A DNA stretch of 31,684 nucleotides, taken from positions 1 through 31,684 of IMG/VR virus record IMGVR_UViG_3300024327_001038; one strand, written 5' to 3'. Positions 3,040-31,338 of this stretch are shown piece by piece (positions within the stretch are counted from its first letter, which is position 1; every line of letters starts with the position of its first letter). The notes under the pieces are model-generated. The model was not told the origin of the DNA. It made no database searches and saw nothing but the letters and a program-made list of their open reading frames with translations. Position numbers and translations under genes: made by a program. The stretch comes from a virus.

Positions 3040-4248
3040 ATGAATCTCAAAATCGAACACATACCGGTCGATCAACTGGTCCCTTACGTGCGTAATGCAC
3101 GGACCCATTCTGACGAGCAAGTCTCTCAGATCGCAGGGTCTATTGCCGAGTTTGGTTTCGTCAATCCGATCCTGGTGGGCGACGACAATGTGATCATCGC
3201 AGGCCACGGTCGTTTGATGGCTGCCCATAAAATGGGGCTTGAGAACGTGCCCGTAATTTATCTATCCCATCTGTCCGAGGTGCAACGTCGGGCGTTGGTT
3301 TTGACAGACAACAAATTGGCTGAAAACGCAGGTTGGGATGAAGACCTGCTGCGCCTCGAACTGGAGGATCTTCAGGCTGAGAATTTTGACCTTGAGCTAA
3401 CGGGATTTGATTTTGATGAGATTGATCGGTTGTTGAATGCCGATACAGAGCCCGCAGGAAACACTGACGATGACGACATACCAGAAACGCCTGAAGAGCC
3501 GATTTCAAAACCGGGGGATCTTTGGTTGCTTGGCAATCATCGCCTGCTTTGTGGTGACGCCACTGTTCTGGGTGATGTTGAGCGGGTGCTGGACGGCGGC
3601 CTTGCCGATCTGACCTTTTGTGATCCGCCATACAATGTGGATTATGCAGGCGGGGCCAGTCGCAAGACGGATCGCCGTATTGAAAATGATAACCTGGGCA
3701 ATGCGTTTGAAGCGTTTTTGTATGACGCCTGCGTCAACATTGTCAGTGTAACCAAGGGCGGCATTTATATCTGCATGTCATCGTCGGAACTGCACACGTT
3801 GCAAAAAGCCTTCGTTGACGCCGGGGGCCACTGGTCGACCTTTATCATCTGGGCCAAGAACAGATTTACGCTGGGTCGGTCTGATTACCAACGCCAGTAC
3901 GAGCCGGTTTTGTATGGCTGGAAAGAAGGCACGGATCACTTTTGGTGCGGAGCCCGAGACCAGGGGGATGTGTGGTTTATCGACCGGCCCCACAAAAACG
4001 ATTTGCACCCGACCATGAAGCCCGTGGCCTTGGTGGAACGCGCCGTGCGTAATTCTTCGAAGTCCCGTGACATCGTGCTTGATCCATTTGGTGGGTCAGG
4101 CACAACGCTGATCGCTTGTGAAAAAGCGGGGCGAAGCGGCAGGCTTATAGAGATGGACCCAAAATACGCAGACGTCATTGTCAAACGCTGGCAGGAATTT
4201 ACCGGGCTCAAAGCAACGCTGGACGGCGATGGTCGGGCGTTCGGTTAA
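3040..4248 (+). CDS. ParB-like domain / DNA methyltransferase fusion
   Basis: A 402-residue two-domain protein. Residues 1-90 form a ParB/Srx-like domain with VIIAGHGRLMAA (residues 51-62). Residues ~160-400 form an amino-methyltransferase with DPPY (195-198), HPTMKP (323-328) and DPFGGSGTT (348-356). The catalytic motif precedes the AdoMet motif, the beta-class order used for N6-adenine or N4-cytosine methylation. An acidic linker (TDDDDIPETPEE) joins the domains. Such fusions are common beside phage terminase genes and are thought to modify phage DNA against host restriction or to mark packaging. It lies 35 bases before the small terminase gene. Enzyme class is secure; the target site is unknown. 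Confidence 0.9.
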   Translation: MNLKIEHIPVDQLVPYVRNARTHSDEQVSQIAGSIAEFGFVNPILVGDDNVIIAGHGRLMAAHKMGLENVPVIYLSHLSEVQRRALVLTDNKLAENAGWDEDLLRLELEDLQAENFDLELTGFDFDEIDRLLNADTEPAGNTDDDDIPETPEEPISKPGDLWLLGNHRLLCGDATVLGDVERVLDGGLADLTFCDPPYNVDYAGGASRKTDRRIENDNLGNAFEAFLYDACVNIVSVTKGGIYICMSSSELHTLQKAFVDAGGHWSTFIIWAKNRFTLGRSDYQRQYEPVLYGWKEGTDHFWCGARDQGDVWFIDRPHKNDLHPTMKPVALVERAVRNSSKSRDIVLDPFGGSGTTLIACEKAGRSGRLIEMDPKYADVIVKRWQEFTGLKATLDGDGRAFG

Positions 4249-16378: not shown

Positions 16379-19296
16379 TGGCTAAAGCCAAACACACCTA
16401 TGCGATCCGCCTCAGCGTTGACGGCGGTGGCAAGGTCAAGGCCGAGCTCATGGATGTGGGCCGCGCTGGCGACAAGTCCCTCAAGAAGATTGAAAAGGCC
16501 GGTGGCCGGGCATCATTGGGCCTGACCAAGCTGTCTGATCGCGCTCAGTCCTTGGGCCGCAACATGAAGTTCCTCTACGGCGCAATTGCCGCCGCCGGGG
16601 CCATTCGCGGTCTGCAGGAAATGGTCAAACTCTATGCGGACTTTGAAGCCGGGCTGATCGGTGTCGGCAAGACGGCCAACCTGTCCAAGACGGAACTGGC
16701 CGCATTGGGCCAGGACATCGATGCCCTTTCCAAACGCATCCCGGTGGCCACCGACGAACTGTTGGCTATTGCCCAAAGTGCGGGCCAGCTGGGGGTGAAG
16801 GGTGCCGCCAACATTCTCAGGTTCACCGAGACTGTGGCGAAGCTTGGTACGGCAACGGACTTGTCCGGCAATGACGCGGCCATGGCTTTGGCGCGCATTC
16901 TCAATGTCACCGGTGAGACCATGGACACCGTTGATGTGCTGGGGTCGGTGATCGTGTCCCTTGGCAATAACTTTGCCGCCACGGAAAGCCAGATTACAGA
17001 AATGACCACCGAAATTGCCCGGGCGACCGCCGTCTTTGGTGTGAGCTCTGCCCAGGCTTCGGCTCTGGCAGCGGCATTGGCATCCGTCGGTGTTAAATCA
17101 GAAGTAGCGGGTACGTCCGTTGGCCGGGTTATGCATATGATGGACGCCGCTGTGCGCAGTGGCGGCAAGCATTTGAATATTTTGTCGCAAATCACCGGCC
17201 AAACCGGCGCACAAATCAAAACCCTGTTCGCTCAAGATTCTACAGCAGCCTTCGTGCTGTTCATCGAAGGGCTAAAACGGATCAGTGATGCTGGTGGATC
17301 GGCAGCGGAAGCCATGGCGGCATTGGGCCTGTCCGACCAGCGATTGTTAAAAACACTGCCGGTGCTGGCGAACCGTGCCGACTTGCTGGCCACAGCCCTT
17401 AATCTTGCCAGTCGCGAGACCGAAAACGCCACGGCCCTGAACGAGGAAGCGGCGAAGGCGTTTGAGAGCCTGAACAGCCAGACGGAGCTGATGTGGAACA
17501 ACATCAAATCCCTGGCCCGTTCTATCGGTGAAGATCTGGCTCCCGGTGTAACCACCGCGATCAAGGAGCTGGGAAGCCTGGCCAATCAAGCCAGTGTTGC
17601 CTATGAGCAATTGAAACTGCTGGCCCAGGGCGATTTTAATCTTGAGGGTCTCAGCCTCGGCAGCACCCGTTCCATTGTCGCGGAACGCCGTGCTGAGCTT
17701 CAGGAGATTGCCCGTGAGCTGAAAGAACTGGGCGACGTCGGGTTTTTGGACGATCCCCTTGGCTGGGGCCGCAAGGTAGCGTTGGAACGCCAACTTGAAG
17801 AAAAGACGGCCATCTATCGTCAATGGTCGACAAAGCTTGCCTGGATGCAGCGGGATATGGGCGACAAGCCAACACCAGAAACCAGCACACCCACACCTGA
17901 CGGCACGGTGGAAATTGATATCAAGGCGGCTCAAGTACGATCTGACCGCATCACTAAACTTGAAAAAGACCTGCAACGGCAACTGTTCATCCTGACCCAT
18001 CAGGGGGCGGACCGTATTCGGGCAGAATATGAACAATTGGCAAAAGACGTTGAGGCGCTGCTTGCCCCGGATGGCAGCAACCAGTCTCAGGTTGATGCCC
18101 TGATGGATCAGGCCGCCTCTGTTCGGGACGCCAAGCTGGCGCGGCTTGCCGCTAAAGCACAGGAAGCGGCGAACCGTATTGCCGAGGCCAATCGTAAAAT
18201 TATAGACGGATTGCGCGCCGAACATGACGCGCTCGCCATGACCGATAAACAGCGCTTTATCTCACAGGCATTGCGGCGGTTATCTGCTGAAGCCACGGTT
18301 GTTGAGCAGCAGCAGGTCCGGCAATTGACCGGAACCTTGTTCGAGGAACAACAAGCCATTGAAGCCCGGAACAAAGCCGAACAGGAAGCTGCCAAGTTAA
18401 AAGAAAAAGGCCGCGCTCTTACGGAAAGTCTGCGAACGGCACAGGAAGCCTACAAAGCTGAGATGATTGATCTCAATCGCTTGCTAGATGAAGGGGGTAT
18501 TGCTCAAGAGGCCTTTGCCCGTGCGTCCGAAGAGGCCTATGGCCGCATGCTCAGTGCCAGCCGGGAATGGTCGGACGGTGTCACCCGGGCGCTGCGTGAC
18601 TACGCGCAAGAGGCTGGTAATGCCGCCAAGCAGTTTGAGCAGGTTACCACCCGGTCGCTGAAAGCCGGAGAAGATGCCTTCGTTCAATGGGCCCGGACCG
18701 GCAAGTTCAGCGCCGCCGACCTCTTCAACACCATCGCCGAGGAGGCCCTGCGCGCCGCCGTTCGCATGTCGGTGATCAAGCCGTTCAGCGGCTTCCTGGA
18801 AAACCTGTTCGGCTCCATTGGTGCCAATTTGTTTGGTGGCGGTTCATCCGCGCCGGTGGGGGATTTTCCGGCCCCTGGTCCGGTGATGGTGGCCCATACG
18901 GGTGGCGTCATTGGTATGGATGTTCTTGCCAGTCGTTCTGTTGATCCGGCGGTATTTGCCACCGCGCCACGGTTTCATGGCGGCGGTGTGGTTGGCGGCG
19001 AGGTTCCCATCATCGCCAGGCGCGGCGAGACCGTGTTCACGCCCGGCCAGATGCGGGCACTCGGTGCCGGCCTGGGCCAGAAACCGGAAGTTCGCGTGAA
19101 TGTCCATGTTGACAACCGGGCGCCGGGAACGGAAGCCACGGTGCAAACCAGCCGGGACGGCAACGGCAACCTCGGCCTGGAAATCGTGGTTGAAAAAATC
19201 GAAGGCAAACTGGCCCGCAACATCGGGCGCGGCGACGGCCTGGCCCCGACCCTTGAGCGCCGATATGGCCTCAATCCGGCGGCGGGGAGTTATTGA
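16378..19296 (+). CDS. Tail tape measure protein (TP901-type core)
   Basis: A 972-residue protein that sets tail length and is ejected with the DNA. Residues ~80-330 match the TP901 core (YADFEAGLIGVGKTANLS, IAQSAGQLGVKGAANILRFT, VAGTSVGRVMHMM, AALGLSDQRLLKTLPVLANR). A long helical, coiled-coil-like region covers about 500-780. The end is Gly-rich with GGVVGGEVPIIARRGETVFTP. The ATG overlaps the preceding stop. Base composition becomes clearly more GC-rich near the 3' end (about 18.7-19.1 kb), suggesting that the last part came with the downstream tail-tip module. Confidence 0.93.
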   Translation: MAKAKHTYAIRLSVDGGGKVKAELMDVGRAGDKSLKKIEKAGGRASLGLTKLSDRAQSLGRNMKFLYGAIAAAGAIRGLQEMVKLYADFEAGLIGVGKTANLSKTELAALGQDIDALSKRIPVATDELLAIAQSAGQLGVKGAANILRFTETVAKLGTATDLSGNDAAMALARILNVTGETMDTVDVLGSVIVSLGNNFAATESQITEMTTEIARATAVFGVSSAQASALAAALASVGVKSEVAGTSVGRVMHMMDAAVRSGGKHLNILSQITGQTGAQIKTLFAQDSTAAFVLFIEGLKRISDAGGSAAEAMAALGLSDQRLLKTLPVLANRADLLATALNLASRETENATALNEEAAKAFESLNSQTELMWNNIKSLARSIGEDLAPGVTTAIKELGSLANQASVAYEQLKLLAQGDFNLEGLSLGSTRSIVAERRAELQEIARELKELGDVGFLDDPLGWGRKVALERQLEEKTAIYRQWSTKLAWMQRDMGDKPTPETSTPTPDGTVEIDIKAAQVRSDRITKLEKDLQRQLFILTHQGADRIRAEYEQLAKDVEALLAPDGSNQSQVDALMDQAASVRDAKLARLAAKAQEAANRIAEANRKIIDGLRAEHDALAMTDKQRFISQALRRLSAEATVVEQQQVRQLTGTLFEEQQAIEARNKAEQEAAKLKEKGRALTESLRTAQEAYKAEMIDLNRLLDEGGIAQEAFARASEEAYGRMLSASREWSDGVTRALRDYAQEAGNAAKQFEQVTTRSLKAGEDAFVQWARTGKFSAADLFNTIAEEALRAAVRMSVIKPFSGFLENLFGSIGANLFGGGSSAPVGDFPAPGPVMVAHTGGVIGMDVLASRSVDPAVFATAPRFHGGGVVGGEVPIIARRGETVFTPGQMRALGAGLGQKPEVRVNVHVDNRAPGTEATVQTSRDGNGNLGLEIVVEKIEGKLARNIGRGDGLAPTLERRYGLNPAAGSY

Positions 19297-19778
19297 TGGT
19301 TGTTTCCTGGCCCACAACCCTGCCATTGCCCAGCATCGAGGGCTACGGCGTCCACCCGGGCGAGGCCATCCTGCGCACCGAGATGGAGGCGGGACCGGCC
19401 CGACAGCGCCGCCGTTACACCCAGGTGCCGAGCCGGATCGCCGTGCGCTGGACCTTCCGCCGCGACCAGTTCGCGCTGTTCGAGGCCTGGTACCGCTGGC
19501 GCGCCAGGGAAGGCGGCGCGTGGTTCGAGATCGACCTGCTGGGCGGCATCGGCTTGACCGCGCACGAAGCCCGCTTCACGCGCCAGTTCCAGGCCTCGCT
19601 GGTGCGCGGCAACCATTGGCGGGTGATCTCGGAACTGGAGATCCGCGAGCGCCCGGTGTTGAGCGAGGACGCTCTCGCCCTCGCGCTCGAGGAAGACATT
19701 GCCGGCCTGCTGGTGGCGATCGACGGCCTTGACCGGCTGGTCGATGCCCAACTGGCGGGCCCCCTCAACTGGAACTAA
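19296..19778 (+). CDS. Minor tail protein (M position)
   Basis: A 160-residue protein directly after the tape measure gene, its ATG overlapping that stop by one base. It has RRRYTQVPSRIAVRWTFRRDQFALFEAWYRW and GGAWFEIDLLGG (pattern given in pieces: RRRYTQVPSRIAVRW, QFALFEAWYRW, GAWFEIDL), a signature I associate with small tail-tip proteins that attach the tip to the tape measure complex. In lambda this slot is gene M. Codon use is strongly GC-rich compared with genes before 18 kb. Confidence 0.7.
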   Translation: MVVSWPTTLPLPSIEGYGVHPGEAILRTEMEAGPARQRRRYTQVPSRIAVRWTFRRDQFALFEAWYRWRAREGGAWFEIDLLGGIGLTAHEARFTRQFQASLVRGNHWRVISELEIRERPVLSEDALALALEEDIAGLLVAIDGLDRLVDAQLAGPLNWN

Positions 19779-19790
19779 GTGGACAGAGCC

Positions 19791-20141
19791 ATGAATCTGC
19801 AACAGGAACTGGAAGCGGCGGTGAGCAAAACCACGGCGGCGGCGGCCAAGCTGCACGCCATTGTCAACGGCGACGCCGGCACCGTGGTCGAGACCGAAGC
19901 CGGCGCGGTGAAGTCGCTGGCCGGCGTTGTCGGCGAGACCGCCGACGCCCTGGCGGCCCTGGCCTCACTGGCCCAGGCGGCCGAGGAGGGCGTGTTCGCC
20001 GACCGGGCGCTGTTTTCCTTCGCCTTGAACGACGAGGGCGAACTGATCGCGATCAGCGACAGGGTCGAACTCTTTCAGGTCGCGCGCTTCGAGTTGCGTG
20101 ACGACGGCACGGTAATCATCAAATACGGAGAAGACCTATGA
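19791..20141 (+). CDS. Unknown tail-module protein, probable fibre component
   Basis: A 116-residue protein of no recognised family. The first ~75 residues are Ala-rich and helical, a likely coiled coil (QQELEAAVSKTTAAAAKL and ALAALASLAQAAEEG). The C-terminal part is beta-like, FSFALNDEGELIAISD followed by [17 protein letters not shown]. That end resembles the [15 protein letters not shown] end of the adjacent collagen-like protein, suggesting related fibre tips. ATG 19791 is preferred over GTG 19779 because an AGAG-like site lies just before it. Its stop overlaps the collagen-like gene start. Confidence 0.6.
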   Translation: MNLQQELEAAVSKTTAAAAKLHAIVNGDAGTVVETEAGAVKSLAGVVGETADALAALASLAQAAEEGVFADRALFSFALNDEGELIAISDRVELFQVARFELRDDGTVIIKYGEDL

Positions 20142-20518
20142 GCGTGGTTAATCTTGGCCGCATCAAGCCGCTGCATCGCGGCGATTACGACGCGGCGGCA
20201 AGTTACGGGGAACTCGATATCGTTGCCTATCAGGGCGCCGGCTATCTCTGCGTCAGCGCCACCGCCCTGCAGGGCACGCCGCCCGTCGATGGCGCCGGCG
20301 GGCTCAACGCCGGCTGGCAACTGCTGGCCGACAAGGGCGCGGTGGGCGAGGTCGGCCCACAAGGGCCCCAGGGCGGCACGGGAGCCCAGGGCGAAACCGG
20401 GGCGCAAGGACCCCAGGGTGGCGCCGGGCCCACCGGTCCACAAGGGCCGGACGGGGTTTTCAGCGGCACGTTTTCGCTCAACCCGGCGGGCGAACTGATC
20501 CTCACTTATACGGACTGA
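20138..20518 (+). CDS. Collagen-like tail fibre protein A
   Basis: A 126-residue protein. Residues 1-65 form a small beta domain of the kind common at the start of phage fibre proteins ([33 protein letters not shown]), somewhat like carbohydrate-binding type 3 domains. Residues ~67-106 are uninterrupted Gly-X-Y triplets ([19 protein letters not shown] and onward), predicted to form a collagen trimer. The end is a short beta segment ([17 protein letters not shown]). It is a paralogue of the next gene. A GGAGAAG ribosome site precedes the ATG, and the start overlaps the previous stop. Confidence 0.82.
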
Positions 20519-20522
20519 TATC

Positions 20523-20984
20523 ATGGCAACGCAAAATCTCGGCCGGGTGCGTTTTGCGCCCCAGGGCGCCTGGAACAGCGCCACGAGCTATTCCTTTTTC
20601 GATCTCGTCAGCCACCAGGGGGCGGCCTACGCCTATGTCGCCGCCACGCCTTCCGCCGGCATCCCGCCTGGCGATGTCGCCGTCTGGCAGTTGGTGGCGG
20701 CCAAGGGCGAGGCCGGGGCGAACGGGGCCGCCGGCCCGCAAGGCCCGGCCGGCGACAAGGGCGACAAGCCGGCGCACCAGTGGTCCGGGCCCTCGCTGCG
20801 CTTCGAGACCCCGACCGGGTCGTGGGGCGGTTACGTGAACCTACAGGGACCCCAGGGCGCACAGGGCTCACCGGGCTCACAGGGGCCGCAAGGCGGGCAA
20901 GGACCCACCGGGGCCACCGGGCCCCAGGGACCGCAGGGTCCCGCCGGCGGCTCCAATTGTAATTGTAATTGCGGCAACCAATGA
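20523..20984 (+). CDS. Collagen-like tail fibre protein B with C-terminal (Asn-Cys)x3
   Basis: A 153-residue paralogue of the preceding protein: N-terminal beta domain ([19 protein letters not shown]), first Gly-X-Y block at ~62-81, an insert with [20 protein letters not shown] (84-103) typical of phage fibres, and a second Gly-X-Y block at ~109-142. It ends [12 protein letters not shown], with Cys146, 148 and 150 alternating with Asn. This tail has no counterpart in protein A. Three chains of a collagen trimer would bring nine cysteines together, suitable for disulfides, metal binding or enzymatic modification. The oxygenase and radical SAM genes just downstream make modification an attractive hypothesis. 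Confidence 0.82.
20955..20972 (+). repeat. Three tandem hexamers encoding Asn-Cys
   Basis: AATTGT, AATTGT and AATTGC follow one another at the 3' end of the fibre gene. These AT-rich codons stand out in a strongly GC-rich stretch. The repeat could expand or contract by slippage. Confidence 0.85.
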
Positions 20985-20992
20985 GGCAACCC

Positions 20993-21853
20993 ATGTTACT
21001 TGCTGTTTCCAAAGGTCTGACGGTCCCGCTGTTCGCGGCGCTGCGGGTCCAGGACACCACCGTGTCCTTCGCGCTGCATGCGCCGCTATCCGGCGATGGC
21101 GTCGACAGCTTCACCGGCGAAGCCGTCGAGCCGCCAAAACGGCTCGGGCGCTTCCGGTTCGGCGCGGCCTGGTGCCGGAGCCCCGATGGCGAGGGCGTCC
21201 TGCGCCGGGTTGATCAGATCGAGATCGATCTTGCGCGGCTGTCGACAATTATAAACCCCCGCCGCCTGGGGCCCTGCGTTAACCTCTATGTCGCCTTTGA
21301 TTTTAGGCGGGGCCGGTTTCTGCCGCCCTACAACAAGCTGGCCGAGAGCTTCGCCAGCAAGGACGACGGTGCCCGCCATATCGCCGGGCGCCAGGTCAAT
21401 GTCGTCGGACAAATCCTGCTGCCGTTCGCCGACGCCGCGCCTGCCGATTGCGCCGCCCGGCTCACCGTAAACCAGACCGCCGGCTTCTGGACCAGCGGCG
21501 AGGCCGATATCCTGGCCAACAGCCATCAGGCCTATGTCGACTTCGCCGCCCGGGTGTTTCCAGGACTGGATATCGAGACGTCGAGCTTGAGCGTCAAACC
21601 GGATGAGCGCGCCCTGATCGGCGTGCGGCTGCTGGCGCCCGACGGCGCCTTTCTCAAGCGCGCGGGCGTCCGTCTGTTCGCCAAAACCGCCGCCGGCTAC
21701 CTGCCCAGGACCGAGGTTCGGACCGATACGTCGGGCCGCGCCCGGATCCCGTTCCTGGCTCTCGGCCTGGAGCCGGGCGACAGGGCGGATGTCGAGCTCG
21801 GCTTCAAGTGGCTTTCCAACATCGCGGCCTGCCGCGTCGAGGTCCAATCATGA
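20993..21853 (+). CDS. Unknown tail-tip protein with Ig-like C-terminal domain
   Basis: A 286-residue protein if started at ATG 20993, which has GAGG six bases ahead; ATG 20981 overlaps the preceding stop and is an alternative. The N-terminal two thirds ([54 protein letters not shown]) are beta-rich and not recognised. The last ~80 residues ([20 protein letters not shown] to ADVELGF) look like an Ig-like or carboxypeptidase-regulatory beta sandwich, common on phage surfaces. It is encoded between the Cys-tailed fibre and the two modifying enzymes and is an alternative substrate for them. Confidence 0.55.
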
Positions 21854-22698
21854 CCGGGCAATGGTTCCACTACCGCGATGTGCCCCCGGACAGGACCGTG
21901 CTCGAGCATATCCGGGCCCATTCCGACTGGGACCAGGCGACGGCGCGGCTCAGGGGACGTTTCGAGCCCAACCTCGGGGTCGCTATTCCCGTTCCCGTCG
22001 ATGATCTGCGGCGCGAGATCGCGCGGGCCTATGGCGATCTGGGCTGGTATCGCTGGCGCTCCACGCCGGGCGGCAGCTATTCGGGGCTCGCCGTCACTCA
22101 TAATCCGGAGCGTGGCGCCGGCGAACGTTACAACGGCCTGCTCGGCCATGAGCGCTACCGGGACCTCGCGACCGAGGACTATTTCGCGGTCGACCGCCAG
22201 ATAGATGCCGCCTACCGGGTGCGGGGCGACTATCTCGACACGCTGGGCTTTCGCCGCCTCAACGACTTCTCGCCCTATCCGGCGCTCAGCACCCTTCTCG
22301 GCGGCTTTCGCCGCCCGATCTCGCGCTCGCGCATCGCCTCGCTGTTCGGTGTTTCGCAAGTCTCGCCGCCTGACGTCGGCTGGCATGTCGACGAACCGCC
22401 CACGACGCTCCTGCGCATCAACATCTGCATCGAAAGCGACGCCGATTACGCCCTCGAATACCAGGACGGACCGGCAATCCCGATAGCCGCCGGCGAATGT
22501 CTGGTGGTCAACACCGACGTCCAGCACCGGGTCGCGGTGCGCCATCCGAGCATCTCGACCCGCAGCCACCTGGTGATCGGCGTCCTGCCCTGGCTCGACT
22601 ACGACGCCGATCAGGACGCCTGGCGCCTGAACGACTTCTACGGGCGTATCCATCCCTATGACATGGTCCGGGAGGGCCTGATCCATGCCGGTCTTTGA
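21850..22698 (+). CDS. 2-oxoglutarate/Fe(II) oxygenase, aspartyl/asparaginyl hydroxylase type
   Basis: A 282-residue protein starting at ATG 21850, overlapping the previous stop, with GAGG ahead. The C-terminal half has the cupin-fold iron site: HxD at His179/Asp181 in GWHVDEPP, a distal His226 in NTDVQHRV, and Arg238 in STRSHLVIG, which would hold 2-oxoglutarate. Spacing and surrounding residues resemble aspartyl/asparaginyl beta-hydroxylases (INICIES..., GECLVVNT) more than prolyl hydroxylases. It would hydroxylate a side chain in a protein. The N-terminal ~150 residues are not recognised and may bind the substrate. It overlaps the radical SAM gene by 14 bases, so the two enzymes are co-translated. 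Confidence 0.8.
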   Translation: MTGQWFHYRDVPPDRTVLEHIRAHSDWDQATARLRGRFEPNLGVAIPVPVDDLRREIARAYGDLGWYRWRSTPGGSYSGLAVTHNPERGAGERYNGLLGHERYRDLATEDYFAVDRQIDAAYRVRGDYLDTLGFRRLNDFSPYPALSTLLGGFRRPISRSRIASLFGVSQVSPPDVGWHVDEPPTTLLRINICIESDADYALEYQDGPAIPIAAGECLVVNTDVQHRVAVRHPSISTRSHLVIGVLPWLDYDADQDAWRLNDFYGRIHPYDMVREGLIHAGL

Positions 22699-24004
22699 CC
22701 TTCTCCTCGAAAAACCCGGCGGCGCCCATGTGATGCTCGCCTACGACACCGATGACTCGGTCATCTCGGGGGCAAACCTCGATTACGGCGCCTTCGGCGT
22801 GACGGCGGCGCCCCGCGCGTGGCGGGCCGTGCAAGCGCTCTCGCCCGGCAACCCGGGCCGCAAGAGCGCCGCCGCCCGGGTCATCAAGGTGTCTCTCGGG
22901 CTCGCCTGCAACCGCGCCTGCGGCTATTGCAACCAGGGCGGCGAACGGGCCCGCGCCGGCGCCAGCCGGCTCGCCGACGCCCAGGCGTTCGTGGCCGGCC
23001 TGGCCGGCTGGTGGGACGGCGGCGAGGACGGCCGTGGCGGTGGCACGCGCTTCGAGTTCTGGGGCGGCGAGCCGCTGCTTTACTGGAACAAGCTCGCATA
23101 CCTCGCCGAGGCGATCCGGCGGCGCTGGCCGGAGGCCTGTTTTCTGATCATCACCAACGGCGATCTTCTGGACGCTGAAAAGGTCGCCTGGCTCGACCGC
23201 ATGGGTTTCGCCGTCGGCCTGTCCCACGACGGGCCCGGCCAGCACCTGCGCGGCGGCGATCCCCTGGACGATCCGGCGCGGCGAAAGATCATAGTGAACC
23301 TGATGGAGCGGCTGGCGCCCGGCGGGCGGTTTTCCTTCAACTGCGTTCTGACCGCCCGGCATTACAGCCTGGCCGCCGCCGAACGCTGGATCGCCGGCAA
23401 GCTCGGACTGGACAGCGTGCCCATGGCGACCGAGGGCCTGATGCTGCCCTATGACGCCGCCGGCCTGATGCTGTCGCCAAAGGGCGATGAGCACGGCGTT
23501 ATCCACAACTCGCTCTTGCGTGAGCTGATCGACGGTCGCGCCTACCGGAACGTCTCGGTCTGGAAAGCCACCAGGGCCTTTGTCCAGAGCCTGGCCGACC
23601 GGCGCCCGGTAACGGCGCTTGGCCAGCGTTGCGGCATGGACCGGCCGGAACACATCGCGCTCGATCTCAAGGGCCGGGTCTTCACCTGCCAGAACACCGG
23701 CGCGCTCGATCACCACATCGGCGACGTGGCGGCGGTCGGGGACATTCGTCTCAGGCGCGCCCGCCATCACAGCCTGCGCCCCGCGTGCCGGACCTGTCCC
23801 GTGGTGCAGCTGTGCCAGGGGGCGTGCATGTTCCTCGACGGCGCGCTGTTCCGCCAGGCTTGCGACAACAGCTTCACCTACCATTCCGCCCTGCTGGCCG
23901 GCGCCCTCTACCACATCACCGGCGGCGGCGTTCTGAAGGAGATCACCAGCCGGGACGGCGTTGCCATCCGGGCTCGCCCGGCAGCCGCGAAAGAGGTGGC
24001 CTGA
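22685..24004 (+). CDS. Radical SAM/SPASM peptide-modifying enzyme
   Basis: A 439-residue enzyme. Residues 75-82 carry the CX3CX2C cluster motif (CNRACGYC), followed by WGGEPLLYW at 126-134, as in AdoMet-binding GGE motifs. The C-terminal SPASM domain is complete: Cys316-X13-Gly330-X4-Cys335, then Cys368-X2-Cys371-X5-Cys377-X3-Cys381 and Cys393, giving two auxiliary iron-sulfur clusters. Relatives mature ribosomal peptides or sulfatases by thioether, carbon-carbon or formylglycine chemistry. No sulfatase or short precursor peptide is nearby, so a tail protein is the likely substrate. A GGGAGG site lies in the upstream oxygenase gene. The first ~65 residues are an unrecognised extension. Confidence 0.9.
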   Translation: MPVFDLLLEKPGGAHVMLAYDTDDSVISGANLDYGAFGVTAAPRAWRAVQALSPGNPGRKSAAARVIKVSLGLACNRACGYCNQGGERARAGASRLADAQAFVAGLAGWWDGGEDGRGGGTRFEFWGGEPLLYWNKLAYLAEAIRRRWPEACFLIITNGDLLDAEKVAWLDRMGFAVGLSHDGPGQHLRGGDPLDDPARRKIIVNLMERLAPGGRFSFNCVLTARHYSLAAAERWIAGKLGLDSVPMATEGLMLPYDAAGLMLSPKGDEHGVIHNSLLRELIDGRAYRNVSVWKATRAFVQSLADRRPVTALGQRCGMDRPEHIALDLKGRVFTCQNTGALDHHIGDVAAVGDIRLRRARHHSLRPACRTCPVVQLCQGACMFLDGALFRQACDNSFTYHSALLAGALYHITGGGVLKEITSRDGVAIRARPAAAKEVA

Positions 24005-24007
24005 ACC

Positions 24008-24550
24008 ATGCCTGATCCCGCACTATCGGCGGCCATCAAGGAGGCCTACGCGGCGGCGCCCTCCGACGTGGTGATCCTGCATACGCTGGAACTGCGGCAT
24101 CCGGCCTTTGTTGATAATGATGGCCTTGTGACCGCCATCCGGGTGGTGCGCGATCATATAGACCTGACGGCGCGGCTGGAACCGGGCGCGCCGCTGGATG
24201 GCGGGGCCATGGTGACGTTTGTGGCCCTGGCCTTCGATCTCTCCCTGCCACCCATCGACACCGCCCCGGTGCCGGAGATCACGGTGACGCTGGATAACGT
24301 GTCGCGCGAGATCGTCCGCCACCTGGACGCGGCGGTGGCAACGCAAGATCGGATCGAGATGACCTACCGACCATATCTTTCGACAGACAAAGAAGGGCCT
24401 CAGATGGATCCACCGATCACCCTTGGTTTAACCGAGGTGGAGGCCAATGCCCTGCAGGTCACGGGACGGGCGCGCATGCTCGATATCGGCAACAAGGCAT
24501 TTCCATCAGAAACCTACACAGCAACGCGGTTTCCGGGATTGGCGAGATAA
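24008..24550 (+). CDS. DUF1833 family tail protein (L position)
   Basis: A 180-residue DUF1833 protein, with IKEAYAAAPSDVVILHTLEL, FVDNDGLVTAIRVVRDH and a later GLTEVEANALQVTGRARMLDIGNKAFPSETYT (given in parts). It occupies the lambda L slot before the NlpC/P60 gene. An AGAGGTGG ribosome site lies just upstream. Base composition falls from GC-rich to ordinary within the gene, around 24.33-24.37 kb, which marks a recombination border of the tail-tip module. Confidence 0.83.
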   Translation: MPDPALSAAIKEAYAAAPSDVVILHTLELRHPAFVDNDGLVTAIRVVRDHIDLTARLEPGAPLDGGAMVTFVALAFDLSLPPIDTAPVPEITVTLDNVSREIVRHLDAAVATQDRIEMTYRPYLSTDKEGPQMDPPITLGLTEVEANALQVTGRARMLDIGNKAFPSETYTATRFPGLAR

Positions 24551-26406: not shown

Positions 26407-28728
26407 ATGTTGGCTAGTGTCCTAATGGTAAACAATCCGTTCTATCCTGATAGGGGGCGGGAAGTATTTTCGGTTACAAAAGTATGCACTTTGCGAAGTT
26501 GGCTCGACACTCGGTCAATATCAGAATTCGATTGCCCGACCATATGTCTGCATAACGGCGAGGCTGTATTGCGCACCAAGTGGCATTCGACTGTTGTTCA
26601 AGACGGAGACATTGTTGCATTTATTGCTCTGCCTCACGGCGGCGGTGGCGGAGGTGGCGGCAAAAATCCACTTAAGACGGTTCTCTCCATCGCCTTGATG
26701 GTGGCCGCACCCGCCTTGGGTGGAGCCCTTGCCGGATCTATGGGGCTGACCGGTAGCCTGTTTGCCGGAACCGCCTTTGAGGTTGGTTTTGGCACGATCA
26801 TGGGCGGCGTGGTTGCGTTGGCAGGTTCAGCCCTGATCAATGCGGTGATCCCATCGCCGAGACCATCCGTGCCGAGCTTGAACTTCAGTGCCGTTGGATC
26901 GTCGCCCGCACCAAGCCCGACCTATTCTCTGTCGGCGCAAGGTAACGAAGCCCGTTTGGGGCAGCCTATCCCTGTGTTGTATGGGCGGCATCTGATCTAT
27001 CCCGATCTTGCGACCCAGCCTTACCAGGAGTTTGTGAACAACGAACAATACCTGTTTCAGCTCCATGTGATTGGTCAGGGTGAATACGATCTGGAGCAGG
27101 TCCGCATCGAGGACACGCCGATTTCATCGTTTGAAGAAGTGCAAACTGAGGTCGTTGCCCCCGGTGGCAGCGTCACTTTGTTTGAAACCGACGTGGTCAC
27201 GGCACCTGAAGTGGCCGGACAGGAATTGCTAAGTGCTGTCGATGGCGGTGCCTGGATTGGTCCCTTTACCGCAAACCCGGCAGAAACCATGGTCAGCCAT
27301 CTCGGCATCGATGTGGTGTTCCCGCGTGGCCTTTATTACGCCAATGACGCAGGTGGCTTGGAAACCCGCACCATCCAATGGCAGGTGCAAGCACGCGCCA
27401 TTGATGATCAAGGTGTCGCTATTGGTTCTTGGATCCCCCTTGGATCGGAGACCTATTCAGATGCGACCAACACAGCTCAGCGGCAAAGTTATAAATACGC
27501 CGTTACGCCGGGGCGTTATGAAGTGCAATTGCAACGTCTCGACACCAAGGATGCATCGTCCCGCGCCGGTCATGAAATCCGCTGGGGTGGGCTTCGCTCT
27601 TATCTGGATGGCACACCTGACTTTGGTGACTTGACGATTTTGGCCGTAAAAATGCGGGCGACGGACAACCTGTCACAACGATCCGCTCGCATGATCAACT
27701 GCATCGTGACGCGCAAATTGCCAATTTGGGAACCAGCGACAGGTTGGAGTGCACCCGTTCCGACCCGGTCCATCGCATGGGCTTTTGCCGATGCGTGTCG
27801 CGCCCAGTATGGCGCAAAGCTGGCCGATAGTCGGATTGATTTAAATGCGCTCCACACCCTGGATCAAATTTGGTCAGGTCGAGGAGATGAGTTTAACGGC
27901 ATCTTTGATAGTTCCATGACCGTGTGGGAGGCTTTAACGCGGATATCGCGCTGTGGTCGGGCGGTGCCCGTGCTTCAAGGCGGCGTTGTTCGCCTCTACC
28001 GGGATGCGGCGCAGACCCTGCCAGTGGCCATGTTTGGGCCGCGCAATATCGTCAAAGGATCGTTCAAGATCCAATACGTTATGCCTGGTGAGGAAACGGC
28101 GGATGCGGTGACAGTTACGTTCTTTAATTCCCGCACATGGAAACCTGATGAGGTCACCAGCAGCCTGGCCGACAGTGCGGCAGAGCAACCGGCGAAGGTC
28201 GCGTTGTTCGGTTGCACCGACGCTGCGCAGGCTAAGCGAGAAGGCCTCTATATGGCTGCCGACAATCGGTATCGGCGGAAGCTGGTGTCCTGGTCAACGG
28301 AACTCGAAGGCATGATCCCGACCTATGGGGATCTGGTTGCCATCACCCATGACATGCCCCATTGGGGACAAGGCGGTGAAGTGGTGGCCTGGGACGATCA
28401 GGCACAGGTTTTGACCGTTTCTGAGCCGCTGACCTGGGAGACCGCCGCGGGGCATTATATAGCACTTCGCCGCCGCGATGGTTCGCTGGCGGGACCATTT
28501 TTGGCCGAGGCCGTCGAAGACGATGACCGCCTCGTTCATGTCTTGGAGCCATTAGACTTTACGCCATACACGGACACGTCTGAAGAGCGCACCCATTTTG
28601 CCTTTGGCGCGGGTGATGCTTGGGGTGCGAAAGCCCGTGTCATCGCCGTAAAACCCCGTGGCGAAAATGTTGAAATCACCGCCGTCGCTGAAGACGCCCG
28701 TGTCCATCAGGCAGACCTCGCCGCATAA
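26407..28728 (+). CDS. TipJ-type host specificity/tail tip protein (I-J fusion)
   Basis: A 773-residue tail tip protein. Residues 1-77 resemble the ubiquitin/ThiS-like fold of gpI proteins (CTLRSWLDTRSISEFDCPTI, HNGEAVLRTKWHSTVVQDGD). A run of eight glycines and KNPL follows, then hydrophobic segments (~88-145), and from ~180 the gpJ-like domain with LGQPIPVLYGRHLIYPDLAT. The protein stops after the conserved baseplate-like part, so it lacks long receptor-binding extensions. ATG 26407 is used; 26425 is an alternative. It would contact the host surface and close the tail. Short morphology fits the presence of separate collagen-like fibres. Confidence 0.88.
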   Translation: MLASVLMVNNPFYPDRGREVFSVTKVCTLRSWLDTRSISEFDCPTICLHNGEAVLRTKWHSTVVQDGDIVAFIALPHGGGGGGGGKNPLKTVLSIALMVAAPALGGALAGSMGLTGSLFAGTAFEVGFGTIMGGVVALAGSALINAVIPSPRPSVPSLNFSAVGSSPAPSPTYSLSAQGNEARLGQPIPVLYGRHLIYPDLATQPYQEFVNNEQYLFQLHVIGQGEYDLEQVRIEDTPISSFEEVQTEVVAPGGSVTLFETDVVTAPEVAGQELLSAVDGGAWIGPFTANPAETMVSHLGIDVVFPRGLYYANDAGGLETRTIQWQVQARAIDDQGVAIGSWIPLGSETYSDATNTAQRQSYKYAVTPGRYEVQLQRLDTKDASSRAGHEIRWGGLRSYLDGTPDFGDLTILAVKMRATDNLSQRSARMINCIVTRKLPIWEPATGWSAPVPTRSIAWAFADACRAQYGAKLADSRIDLNALHTLDQIWSGRGDEFNGIFDSSMTVWEALTRISRCGRAVPVLQGGVVRLYRDAAQTLPVAMFGPRNIVKGSFKIQYVMPGEETADAVTVTFFNSRTWKPDEVTSSLADSAAEQPAKVALFGCTDAAQAKREGLYMAADNRYRRKLVSWSTELEGMIPTYGDLVAITHDMPHWGQGGEVVAWDDQAQVLTVSEPLTWETAAGHYIALRRRDGSLAGPFLAEAVEDDDRLVHVLEPLDFTPYTDTSEERTHFAFGAGDAWGAKARVIAVKPRGENVEITAVAEDARVHQADLAA

Positions 28729-30294: not shown

Positions 30295-31338
30295 TTATCT
30301 CTGAAATATATCCACCTTGGTCTCGAGGCATTTCCTTAACAAGAGATCGTTTGACCCAATCCCGAACCAACTGTCGGGCTTTTGGTAAAAATCCAACCCT
30401 CGCCCGATTTTAACCGTCCAGCCATTATCAATTCTGATTTCACGGTCGTGCATGTGCTCGTTGATCTGAATATCGAGTTCTATATCAACGTCTAATAGAC
30501 TTTGTTTCAATTCACTAAGTCTCTCAGAAAGTGCCTGAACGTCCGTGTCGTTATCATAACTGGTAATTAGAACAATTTTTCTAACGGTTGGGGTTTTGAT
30601 AACGGCCTCGCAGAACCGAACAAAATTGTGCACCTGATGCGTTGCCCTAATATATGGATCTTCAATTTCGACAGCTTTAGCCCCGTTTAAATAGGGTGCG
30701 ATGAGGCTTTCGTAACTGTGGCCCGTATCGCCATAATAAATTGTGAAATGTTGCTCACTGGGCAGAGGTTCAGCCTTCGTTGTTATTTCAACATCTTTTA
30801 CCTCGGTGACTGCCACGGGCGCGGCTTCCGCCGGGACAGTAATAACTGCATCGGGGATTTCAGATGTTTCGCCGTTCTCGTGTATATCGCGTCGTGTTGG
30901 CTCTTGAGTGGCTAGGGCTGTTTTAGATTCCGGGCAGAAAACAACAACTTCACTTCCGTCCTTGTCAAAGAATGAGAGGTTGATTTTAGAGAACTCGTCA
31001 TCAGACTTTCTTTTGTTCATTTGCTCTTTGATACGTCTGCGACTTTCAACTGCATAACTGACATATTCATCGAACTCTTCGTCTGTTGGTTTATTGCCAG
31101 GATGTAAAATTTTCAGCAAGGCGGACACTGTCTTCTTGATCCCTTTTTCGTCACGCCCTTCCACGGCTTTTCCTAGGCGAATTCTCTTGCTGACCTCCTC
31201 GTATCGATTGGTGTGTTTCAGCTGATAATGAAAAGCCTCAGCTAAGTAGTCGGTGATAAAGCCATAGTTCGATGTAAGAAAATCACTGCTGTTTTTTGGC
31301 ATCTCCCATCCTGGTAGATAAGACGCAAAGCGATCCAT
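30295..31338 (-). pseudogene. BrxL/Lon-like C-terminal fragment with MIT_C (phospholipase D-like) domain
   Basis: The open frame gives 347 residues. Residues 1-125 match the part after the AAA ATPase of Lon-like BREX proteins such as BrxL: LPGWEMPKNSSDFLTSNYGF, ITDYLAEAF, VSALLKILHPGNKPTDEEFD, ESRRRIKEQM. Residues ~195-347 match the MIT C-terminal domain known from eukaryotic MITD1, including HDREI, GWTVKIGRGLDFYQK and a final TKVDIF. No ATPase domain is present. BrxL-like sequence appears to continue in frame before the ATG (NDIRLPKEFDLAV) up to a TGA at 31378-31380, so the gene is most likely 5'-truncated. A shorter functional protein is not excluded. Confidence 0.65.

Follow-up and report, generated by a model that had tools for sequence, protein, structure and literature searches.

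What are genes for a radical S-adenosylmethionine (SAM) enzyme and a 2-oxoglutarate (2OG) oxygenase doing among the tail-fibre genes of a phage? The question is raised by a 31.7-kb virus record, the whole of which was analysed and is called the window here. At 19791-24004 of the window, six contiguous genes on the + strand, all confirmed as called, run from fibre proteins to these two enzymes. The first-pass annotation saw in them a system acting on a virion tail-tip protein in the manner of those that make ribosomally synthesized and post-translationally modified peptides (RiPPs), with collagen-like fibres coupled to the enzymes. The association of the enzyme set with a virion fibre protein stands, while collagen is not the coupled feature. 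The feature that constantly accompanies the radical SAM/SPASM enzyme is a C-terminal (Cys-x)n fibre tail (x = Asn, Ala, Asp), and the cassette is probably a virus-encoded modification system for the tail-fibre tip, acting on this tail. Its features are:

19791-20141 (+), probable N-terminal anchor module of the tail fibre, read from an ATG, with an in-frame GTG at 19779
20138-20518 (+), collagen-like fibre protein 1, 126 amino acids, without a Cys tail; phrog_5073 (tail fiber) 8.6e-20
20523-20984 (+), collagen-like fibre protein 2, 153 amino acids, the proposed substrate; phrog_5073 1.6e-24
20955-20981 (+), Cys-x tail NCNCNCGNQ at the C-terminus of the 20523-20984 protein, the common signature of the system
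20981-21853 (+), c2 protein, 290 amino acids, with an N-terminal domain and a C-terminal immunoglobulin (Ig)-like domain
21850-22698 (+), Fe(II)/2OG oxygenase, family c7, 282 amino acids, with an HxD..H..R site and fold matches
22685-24004 (+), radical SAM/SPASM enzyme, 439 amino acids, phrog_1802 family (1.2e-47)

Successive genes overlap by 4, 4, 4 and 14 bases, with one 4-base gap. The closest relative of the cassette is L335, from a Magnetovibrio metagenome-assembled genome, with 76% identity in the radical SAM enzyme. The six genes are real and maintained, since all are kept in L335 with ratios of nonsynonymous to synonymous substitution (dN/dS) of 0.23-0.42, which is purifying selection; the 19791-20141 protein, for instance, is 78% identical to its counterpart (dN/dS 0.23). 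The first-pass reading of the six as a small fibre-like protein, two collagen-like proteins, an Ig-ended protein, an oxygenase with an intact HxD...H...R site and a radical SAM enzyme with complete CX3CX2C and SPASM cysteines is borne out by the motifs, folds and active sites described below.

The co-occurrence of the enzyme with Cys-tailed proteins, which the first-pass annotation put forward only as a check, is found in both directions. Relatives of the enzyme were taken from viral contigs (the best 80 of at least 585) and from genome contigs (the best 80 of 153), and among phage records Achromobacter phages JWF and 2-1 are the sole close matches to the radical SAM protein. Environmental prophages such as those of Thalassobacter stenotrophicus (L363) and Limnohabitans (L346) are among the loci. 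The neighbourhoods of these relatives contain a fibre-type protein with an alternating-Cys C-terminus, such as NCNCNCDCNCNCNC, FNCNCNCACDCAC or WNCACACDCACACSK. A tail was defined as a Cys-x run of at least 3 Cys, at most 16 residues from the end or before a Hint domain, with at least half of the x residues being N, D or A, a rule that includes a few weak matches such as CTCAC. A same-strand tail is present in 115 of the 131 enzyme loci that have 3 kb or more upstream, compared with 5 of 131 for the opposite strand of the same interval. Viral contigs, isolates and the window together show it in 62 of 64 loci, both of the others carrying variants recognized by eye (CNCQCYC in L291, ACNCAGGACDCG in L332), and genome contigs in 53 of 67, plus L408 by eye. 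The initial pattern had overlooked a Hint start of GA (L326) and short variants (L291, L332, L424), all found by eye. At 60% identity the loci form 36 clusters, 29 of them with the tail.

The reverse test was blind to the enzyme. A CNCNCNC DNA pattern sought in viral contigs gave 120 matches, of which 51 are real tails, that is, C-terminal in an open frame of at least 60 amino acids, and the enzyme lies on the same strand in 41 of these 51. For the ten real tails without it, the retrieved sequence stops 0.1-2.5 kb away; two of the ten are covered by longer loci of the same contigs, and these do show the enzyme (L442 for L064; L265 and L067 for L079). Four of the other 69 matches have the enzyme, these also having real tails by eye, as against 0 of 65 chance frames (Fisher 5e-18 for tail-enzyme linkage). 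As a control, a general run of seven alternating Cys was sought in viral contigs; it gave only repeats and chance frames, with the enzyme in 0 of 120. These results bear on the idea that the enzymes serve metabolism, host takeover or defence (as viperin-like or sulfatase maturase-like proteins) and lie among tail genes by chance, as weak matches to pVip (2e-9) and to sulfatase maturases (2e-9) might suggest. With the order fibre tail, c2, oxygenase, enzyme recurring across diverse phages, and with the linkage seen both ways, that idea is highly improbable.

The tails hold 3-11 Cys, and their x positions, with few branched or bulky residues, are N in 262, A in 126 and D in 60 of 491 cases. The counterpart of the 20523-20984 protein in L335 ends in GNCNCACDCGNN, and the tail of L328 is CNCNCNCNC. 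Tailed proteins have a median length of 284 amino acids (124 predicted tail open reading frames), and several match tail-fibre families; in L012 a Peptidase_S74 fibre precedes the Cys-tailed protein. In the window the fibre seems to be split over three genes (anchor, collagen-like, and collagen-like plus tail), because a tailed fibre of 357 amino acids in L006 begins with MTLQTDLQAAVAKTTAAADKLHQVVHGDSGSTVETENG..., which by eye resembles the 19791-20141 protein.

In the mechanism proposed here, the fibre protein ends in this short tail and the radical SAM/SPASM enzyme encoded just 3' would modify it; that the tail is the substrate of the enzyme is very likely. A different role for the cysteines would be that of a metal-binding, metallothionein-like fibre tip, with the enzymes building or protecting the metal site. 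Cys-x-Cys is the typical metallothionein spacing, and runs of up to 11 Cys occur; the linkage to a SPASM enzyme of peptide-maturase type and a window tail of just three Cys are left unexplained, so that this role is rather improbable.

Tailed proteins also occur in other arrangements. L303, L304, L097 and L134 have three small Cys-tailed proteins in tandem 5' of c2. L011 (3333-3831 and 7268-8754) combines two small Cys-tailed proteins with a pair of Asp-hydroxylase-like genes. In its relative L012 the cassette is followed by a tail-sheath-like protein, which suggests that contractile-tail phages may also use the cassette.

In ten loci (JWF, 2-1, L010, L274, L282, L350, L351, L353, L358 and L407) a Hint domain directly follows the Cys-x run, as it does by eye in L326, where it starts with GA instead of GT; there is none after the tail in the window. 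These Hint domains begin with Cys (PF05203, 3e-12 in JWF). Going by Hint biochemistry, self-cleavage at that first Cys would leave the tail as the mature C-terminus, a position that in other loci it has as translated; in these phages the Hint domain would cap the tail and cut itself off, exposing it. The enzyme tree requires five or more changes in the presence of the Hint domain, which is therefore a repeated solution.

The window enzyme exceeds the cut-offs of the radical SAM family PF04055 (30.7 bits, cut-off 29.5) and of the SPASM family TIGR04085 (31.2 bits, cut-off 27). Its CX3CX2C motif (C75, C79, C82) and seven SPASM cysteines (C316, C335, C368, C371, C377, C381, C393) are invariant in 16 homologues. 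All 16 members are matched, well under the cut-offs, by PapB (best 3e-23) and QhpD (4e-20), and the nearest solved structures include the SCIFF maturase CteB and anSME. By these similarities the enzyme is nearest to thioether-forming SPASM maturases. The likeliest reaction would be a joining of Cys sulphurs to neighbouring residues, giving a thioether ladder as with PapB, QhpD and SCIFF maturases; a thioether product nevertheless remains tentative, at somewhat less than an even chance. A tail so linked would be a rigid, protease-resistant tip.

The main alternative is epimerisation of every other tail residue by the enzyme, or some other change to the backbone, the tail then adopting a fold like the D/L-alternating helix of polytheonamide. 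A strict Cys-x alternation suits a reaction at every second residue, and x is mostly N, A or D. The conserved Cys would not be needed, however, and all 16 members have complete SPASM cysteines and SPASM maturases as best matches; the epimerase YydG matches weakly (8e-5). Polytheonamide does offer a precedent for the enzyme pair, the radical SAM epimerase PoyD and the Fe(II)/2OG hydroxylase PoyI acting on one ribosomal substrate (PMC9505594). On these points epimerisation is unlikely. As a separate observation, in L031, L037, L066 and L091, which are without an oxygenase, genes for TRAP-type solute-binding-like and PP-loop (Asn_synthase-like) proteins lie downstream of the enzyme.

The c2 protein is modelled by AlphaFold2 with a predicted local distance difference test score (pLDDT) of 84. 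Its residues 193-290 form an Ig-like domain (pLDDT 94-98; Z 11.8 to 9bey and 11.5 to intimin), and the N-terminal domain (1-192) shows no match in the fold search of the full-length protein. A PqqD-like element has no Pfam match in c2 or in the window enzyme, and the c2 fold search is dominated by the Ig domain. Either c2 or its positional counterpart c6 is present in 94 of the 116 cassettes with complete flanks. Of 597 genomes from two bacterial families, five contain c2, always with the enzyme some 1-2 kb away; it is a dedicated partner of the enzyme, with near-exclusive linkage in the genomes searched. No match to c2 is found in phage records. It could be that c2, found only beside the enzyme in these genomes, is the substrate, with the Cys tail serving in docking or assembly. 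Yet c2 is undetected in 31 of the 116 complete cassettes, compared with 15 of 116 for the tail, and it is variable (mean column identity 27%) and under the weakest constraint of the six genes (dN/dS 0.42), which makes it an improbable substrate. As a partner of an enzyme that modifies the tail, c2 would either help the enzyme to find the fibre or cap the tip.

The oxygenase has no clear match in Pfam, NCBIfam or PHROG families, and none in phage records. Its H179-x-D181, H226 and 2OG-binding R238 are invariant in 11 homologues. The AlphaFold2 model (pLDDT 72, predicted template modelling score 0.76) matches Fe(II)/2OG hydroxylases, including Pro-3-hydroxylase and AspH, through a double-stranded beta-helix (Z 13.4 to 1e5r, 13.3 to 7v4f, 11.5 to AspH 5apa; Foldseek 3.9e-6). 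The Asp/Asn beta-hydroxylase family PF05118 has no Pfam match to the window oxygenase, and the analogous L012 protein reaches 18.0 bits (cut-off 22.6). Searched alone, the family of the window oxygenase gives 32 loci, 29 of them with the radical SAM enzyme; two are cut off after the oxygenase, and one, L436, is a true exception. Across the 116 cassettes, oxygenase hidden Markov models match in 71 and not in the remaining ones. Other cassettes have different oxygenases, PF13759-, PF05118- or PF13640-like and below the cut-offs, and L345, L346, L364, L393, L402 and L409 carry three distinct genes of 2OG-oxygenase type between c2 and the enzyme. Because the oxygenases differ, multiply or are absent, with at least 12 changes of presence on the enzyme tree, the core is the tail and the radical SAM enzyme, and the oxygenases are interchangeable, variable accessories. 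Where present, they would supply an extra, variable modification, and it is likely that they act on the same fibre.

The collagen-like repeats led to a further reading, in which the oxygenase would hydroxylate prolines of the fibre, as happens in animal collagen, and would have no connection with the radical SAM enzyme. Collagen-like genes do adjoin the oxygenase, and its fold matches include prolyl hydroxylases. Of the two collagen-like proteins in the window, that at 20523-20984 is above the PF01391 cut-off (33.8 vs 27.2 bits) and that at 20138-20518 slightly under it (24.8 bits). By sequence inspection, their Gly-X-Y triplets have Pro at X in all but one, whereas prolyl-4-hydroxylases act on Pro in the Y position. 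The same oxygenase family occurs at fibres without such repeats (L033, L053, L302, L309 and others), and the radical SAM gene follows in 29 of its 32 members. Collagen proline hydroxylation was rejected because of the Pro position and these non-collagen loci, and is very improbable. The coupling of collagen-like fibres to the enzymes, as first annotated, is likewise not supported: repeats lie near just 28 of the 131 enzyme loci, within the tailed protein itself in about 14, and the oxygenase family also accompanies non-collagen fibres. Collagen is one stem type among several for tailed fibres. Collagen-like protein 2 (20523-20984) itself has no match in phage records.

Several points weigh against the proposed modification system. 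No NCBIfam peptide-maturase cut-off is reached, the window enzyme scoring 46.9 bits against the 340 set for PapB (NF047865). A strict Cys-Asp link would leave the frequent Ala at x unexplained. The Asn/Asp content of the tail is equal with and without an oxygenase (0.68 vs 0.67, p 0.96), and therefore the tail gives no support for Asn/Asp at x as the oxygenase target, a candidate that was tried in this composition test. Radical SAM enzymes are oxygen-sensitive, whereas 2OG oxygenases require oxygen. Finally, 13 genome-contig loci of the enzyme family have no Cys tail (L349, L369, L381, L389, L391, L394, L395, L400, L401, L404, L406, L410 and L412), and the enzyme can therefore have another partner. 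Most of the 13 are also without c2 and oxygenase, and on the enzyme tree four changes suffice for their nine representatives. These loci have the look of prophages in decay or of chromosomal relatives whose partner is a different one. Among the viral contigs, the first-pass idea is not refuted by enzymes that occur without any of the tail proteins; some chromosomal enzyme relatives do have neither tail nor Ig-ended protein nor oxygenase. Relatives without Cys tail, c2 and oxygenase occur in Variovorax, Ramlibacter and other genomes and in Bacteriovoracaceae (L369, L391, L395, L400, L401, L404, L406, L412), and the tail-less loci of Bacteriovoracaceae contain additional radical SAM-like genes.

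The window is from a lambda-like tailed phage, as shown by its GpA terminase, lambda-type portal, capsid E, tape measure and TipJ genes. The cassette comes after the gene 3' of the tape measure (19293-19778, phrog_384) and before DUF1833, NlpC/P60 and TipJ genes. The exact labels 'M-like' and 'L-like', which the first-pass annotation gave to the genes on either side, are without family support. Two of the following genes are:

24008-24550 (+), minor tail protein, DUF1833 (163.2 bits) / phrog_396 (4.5e-41)
26407-28728 (+), TipJ / gpJ-like host-specificity protein, NF040662 (543 bits)

Elsewhere in the window, 3040-4245 (+), upstream of the terminase, encodes a DNA methylase fused to a ParB N-terminal domain, and 30298-31338 (-), at the phage end, encodes a protein of 347 amino acids with part of a BrxL-like ATPase domain and an MIT_C (phospholipase D-like) domain.

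Phage fibre tips determine host range. That tail and enzyme turn up together in many other phage sequences points to an as yet undescribed manner of building host-recognition tips, and host attachment is a fairly likely purpose of the modification. On balance, and by a modest degree of preference, we consider that at least several hundred phage and prophage contigs share an undescribed virion modification, in which the radical SAM enzyme, an Ig-ended partner and interchangeable oxygenases would rewrite a C-terminal (Cys-x)n ladder into a covalently stiffened or chemically new host-binding tip, with self-removing Hint caps in some lineages. If so, this would be a new substrate class for radical SAM enzymes, on a structural protein, and would explain the presence of a peptide-maturase-like gene amid the tail genes of many environmental phages. 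The Cys-x tail and its enzyme form a portable pair, which may serve as a genetic tag for cross-linking protein ends enzymatically.

The enzyme class is known; to our knowledge, its use on a virion fibre tip is not, and the phage virion modifications known to us, such as glycosylation, include no radical SAM one. A search of the open-access literature, preprints excluded, gave no description of radical SAM enzymes with fibre tails or of CNCNCNC, and novelty is provisional because of that scope. The ranthipeptide maturases of PapB type are alike in being radical SAM/SPASM enzymes, PapB being the best shared family of the 16 members (3e-23). PapB bonds the sulphur of Cys to the Asp beta carbon, and it accepts spacings of Cys-X0-6-Asp (PMC9413430). 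The window enzyme differs in its score (47 bits vs a cut-off of 340) and in its proposed substrate, a fibre protein with alternating Cys-x, mostly Asn/Ala, in place of Cys-X3-Asp. In RiPP pathways a short precursor carries leader and core; here the tail ends fibre proteins, and no separate precursor is seen in the window. Polytheonamide-type proteusin pathways likewise combine radical SAM chemistry with Fe(II)/2OG hydroxylation; they differ in making a peptide natural product with an NHLP leader, the proposed target here being a virion fibre. PoyD is also not known to have the full SPASM domain that is present in the enzyme here. The His-Xaa-Ser system (HxsB/HxsC) and a cassette of Thermus phage Cumys, which adjoins tail fibre genes, likewise place a radical SAM enzyme beside a short-repeat protein; their repeats are of His-x-Asp type and the enzyme similarity is distant (1e-7). 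In Cumys (PQ109079; L415 3255-7170) the distant radical SAM gene, whose product ends in GDYTDHGDAPHGDHWDG, lies after a tail collar fibre gene and beside that of a His-x-Asp-repeat protein of 343 amino acids, possibly an independent system of radical SAM enzyme and repeat fibre. Among cultured phages, Achromobacter phage JWF (NC_029075, gp028-gp030) encodes a member of this radical SAM family (37% identity) together with the tail CNCDCNCNCS. It differs in its Hint domain (PF05203) after the tail, in having c6 instead of c2 and no oxygenase found, and in the location of the genes after gpJ, where they are annotated merely as separate, unconnected genes.

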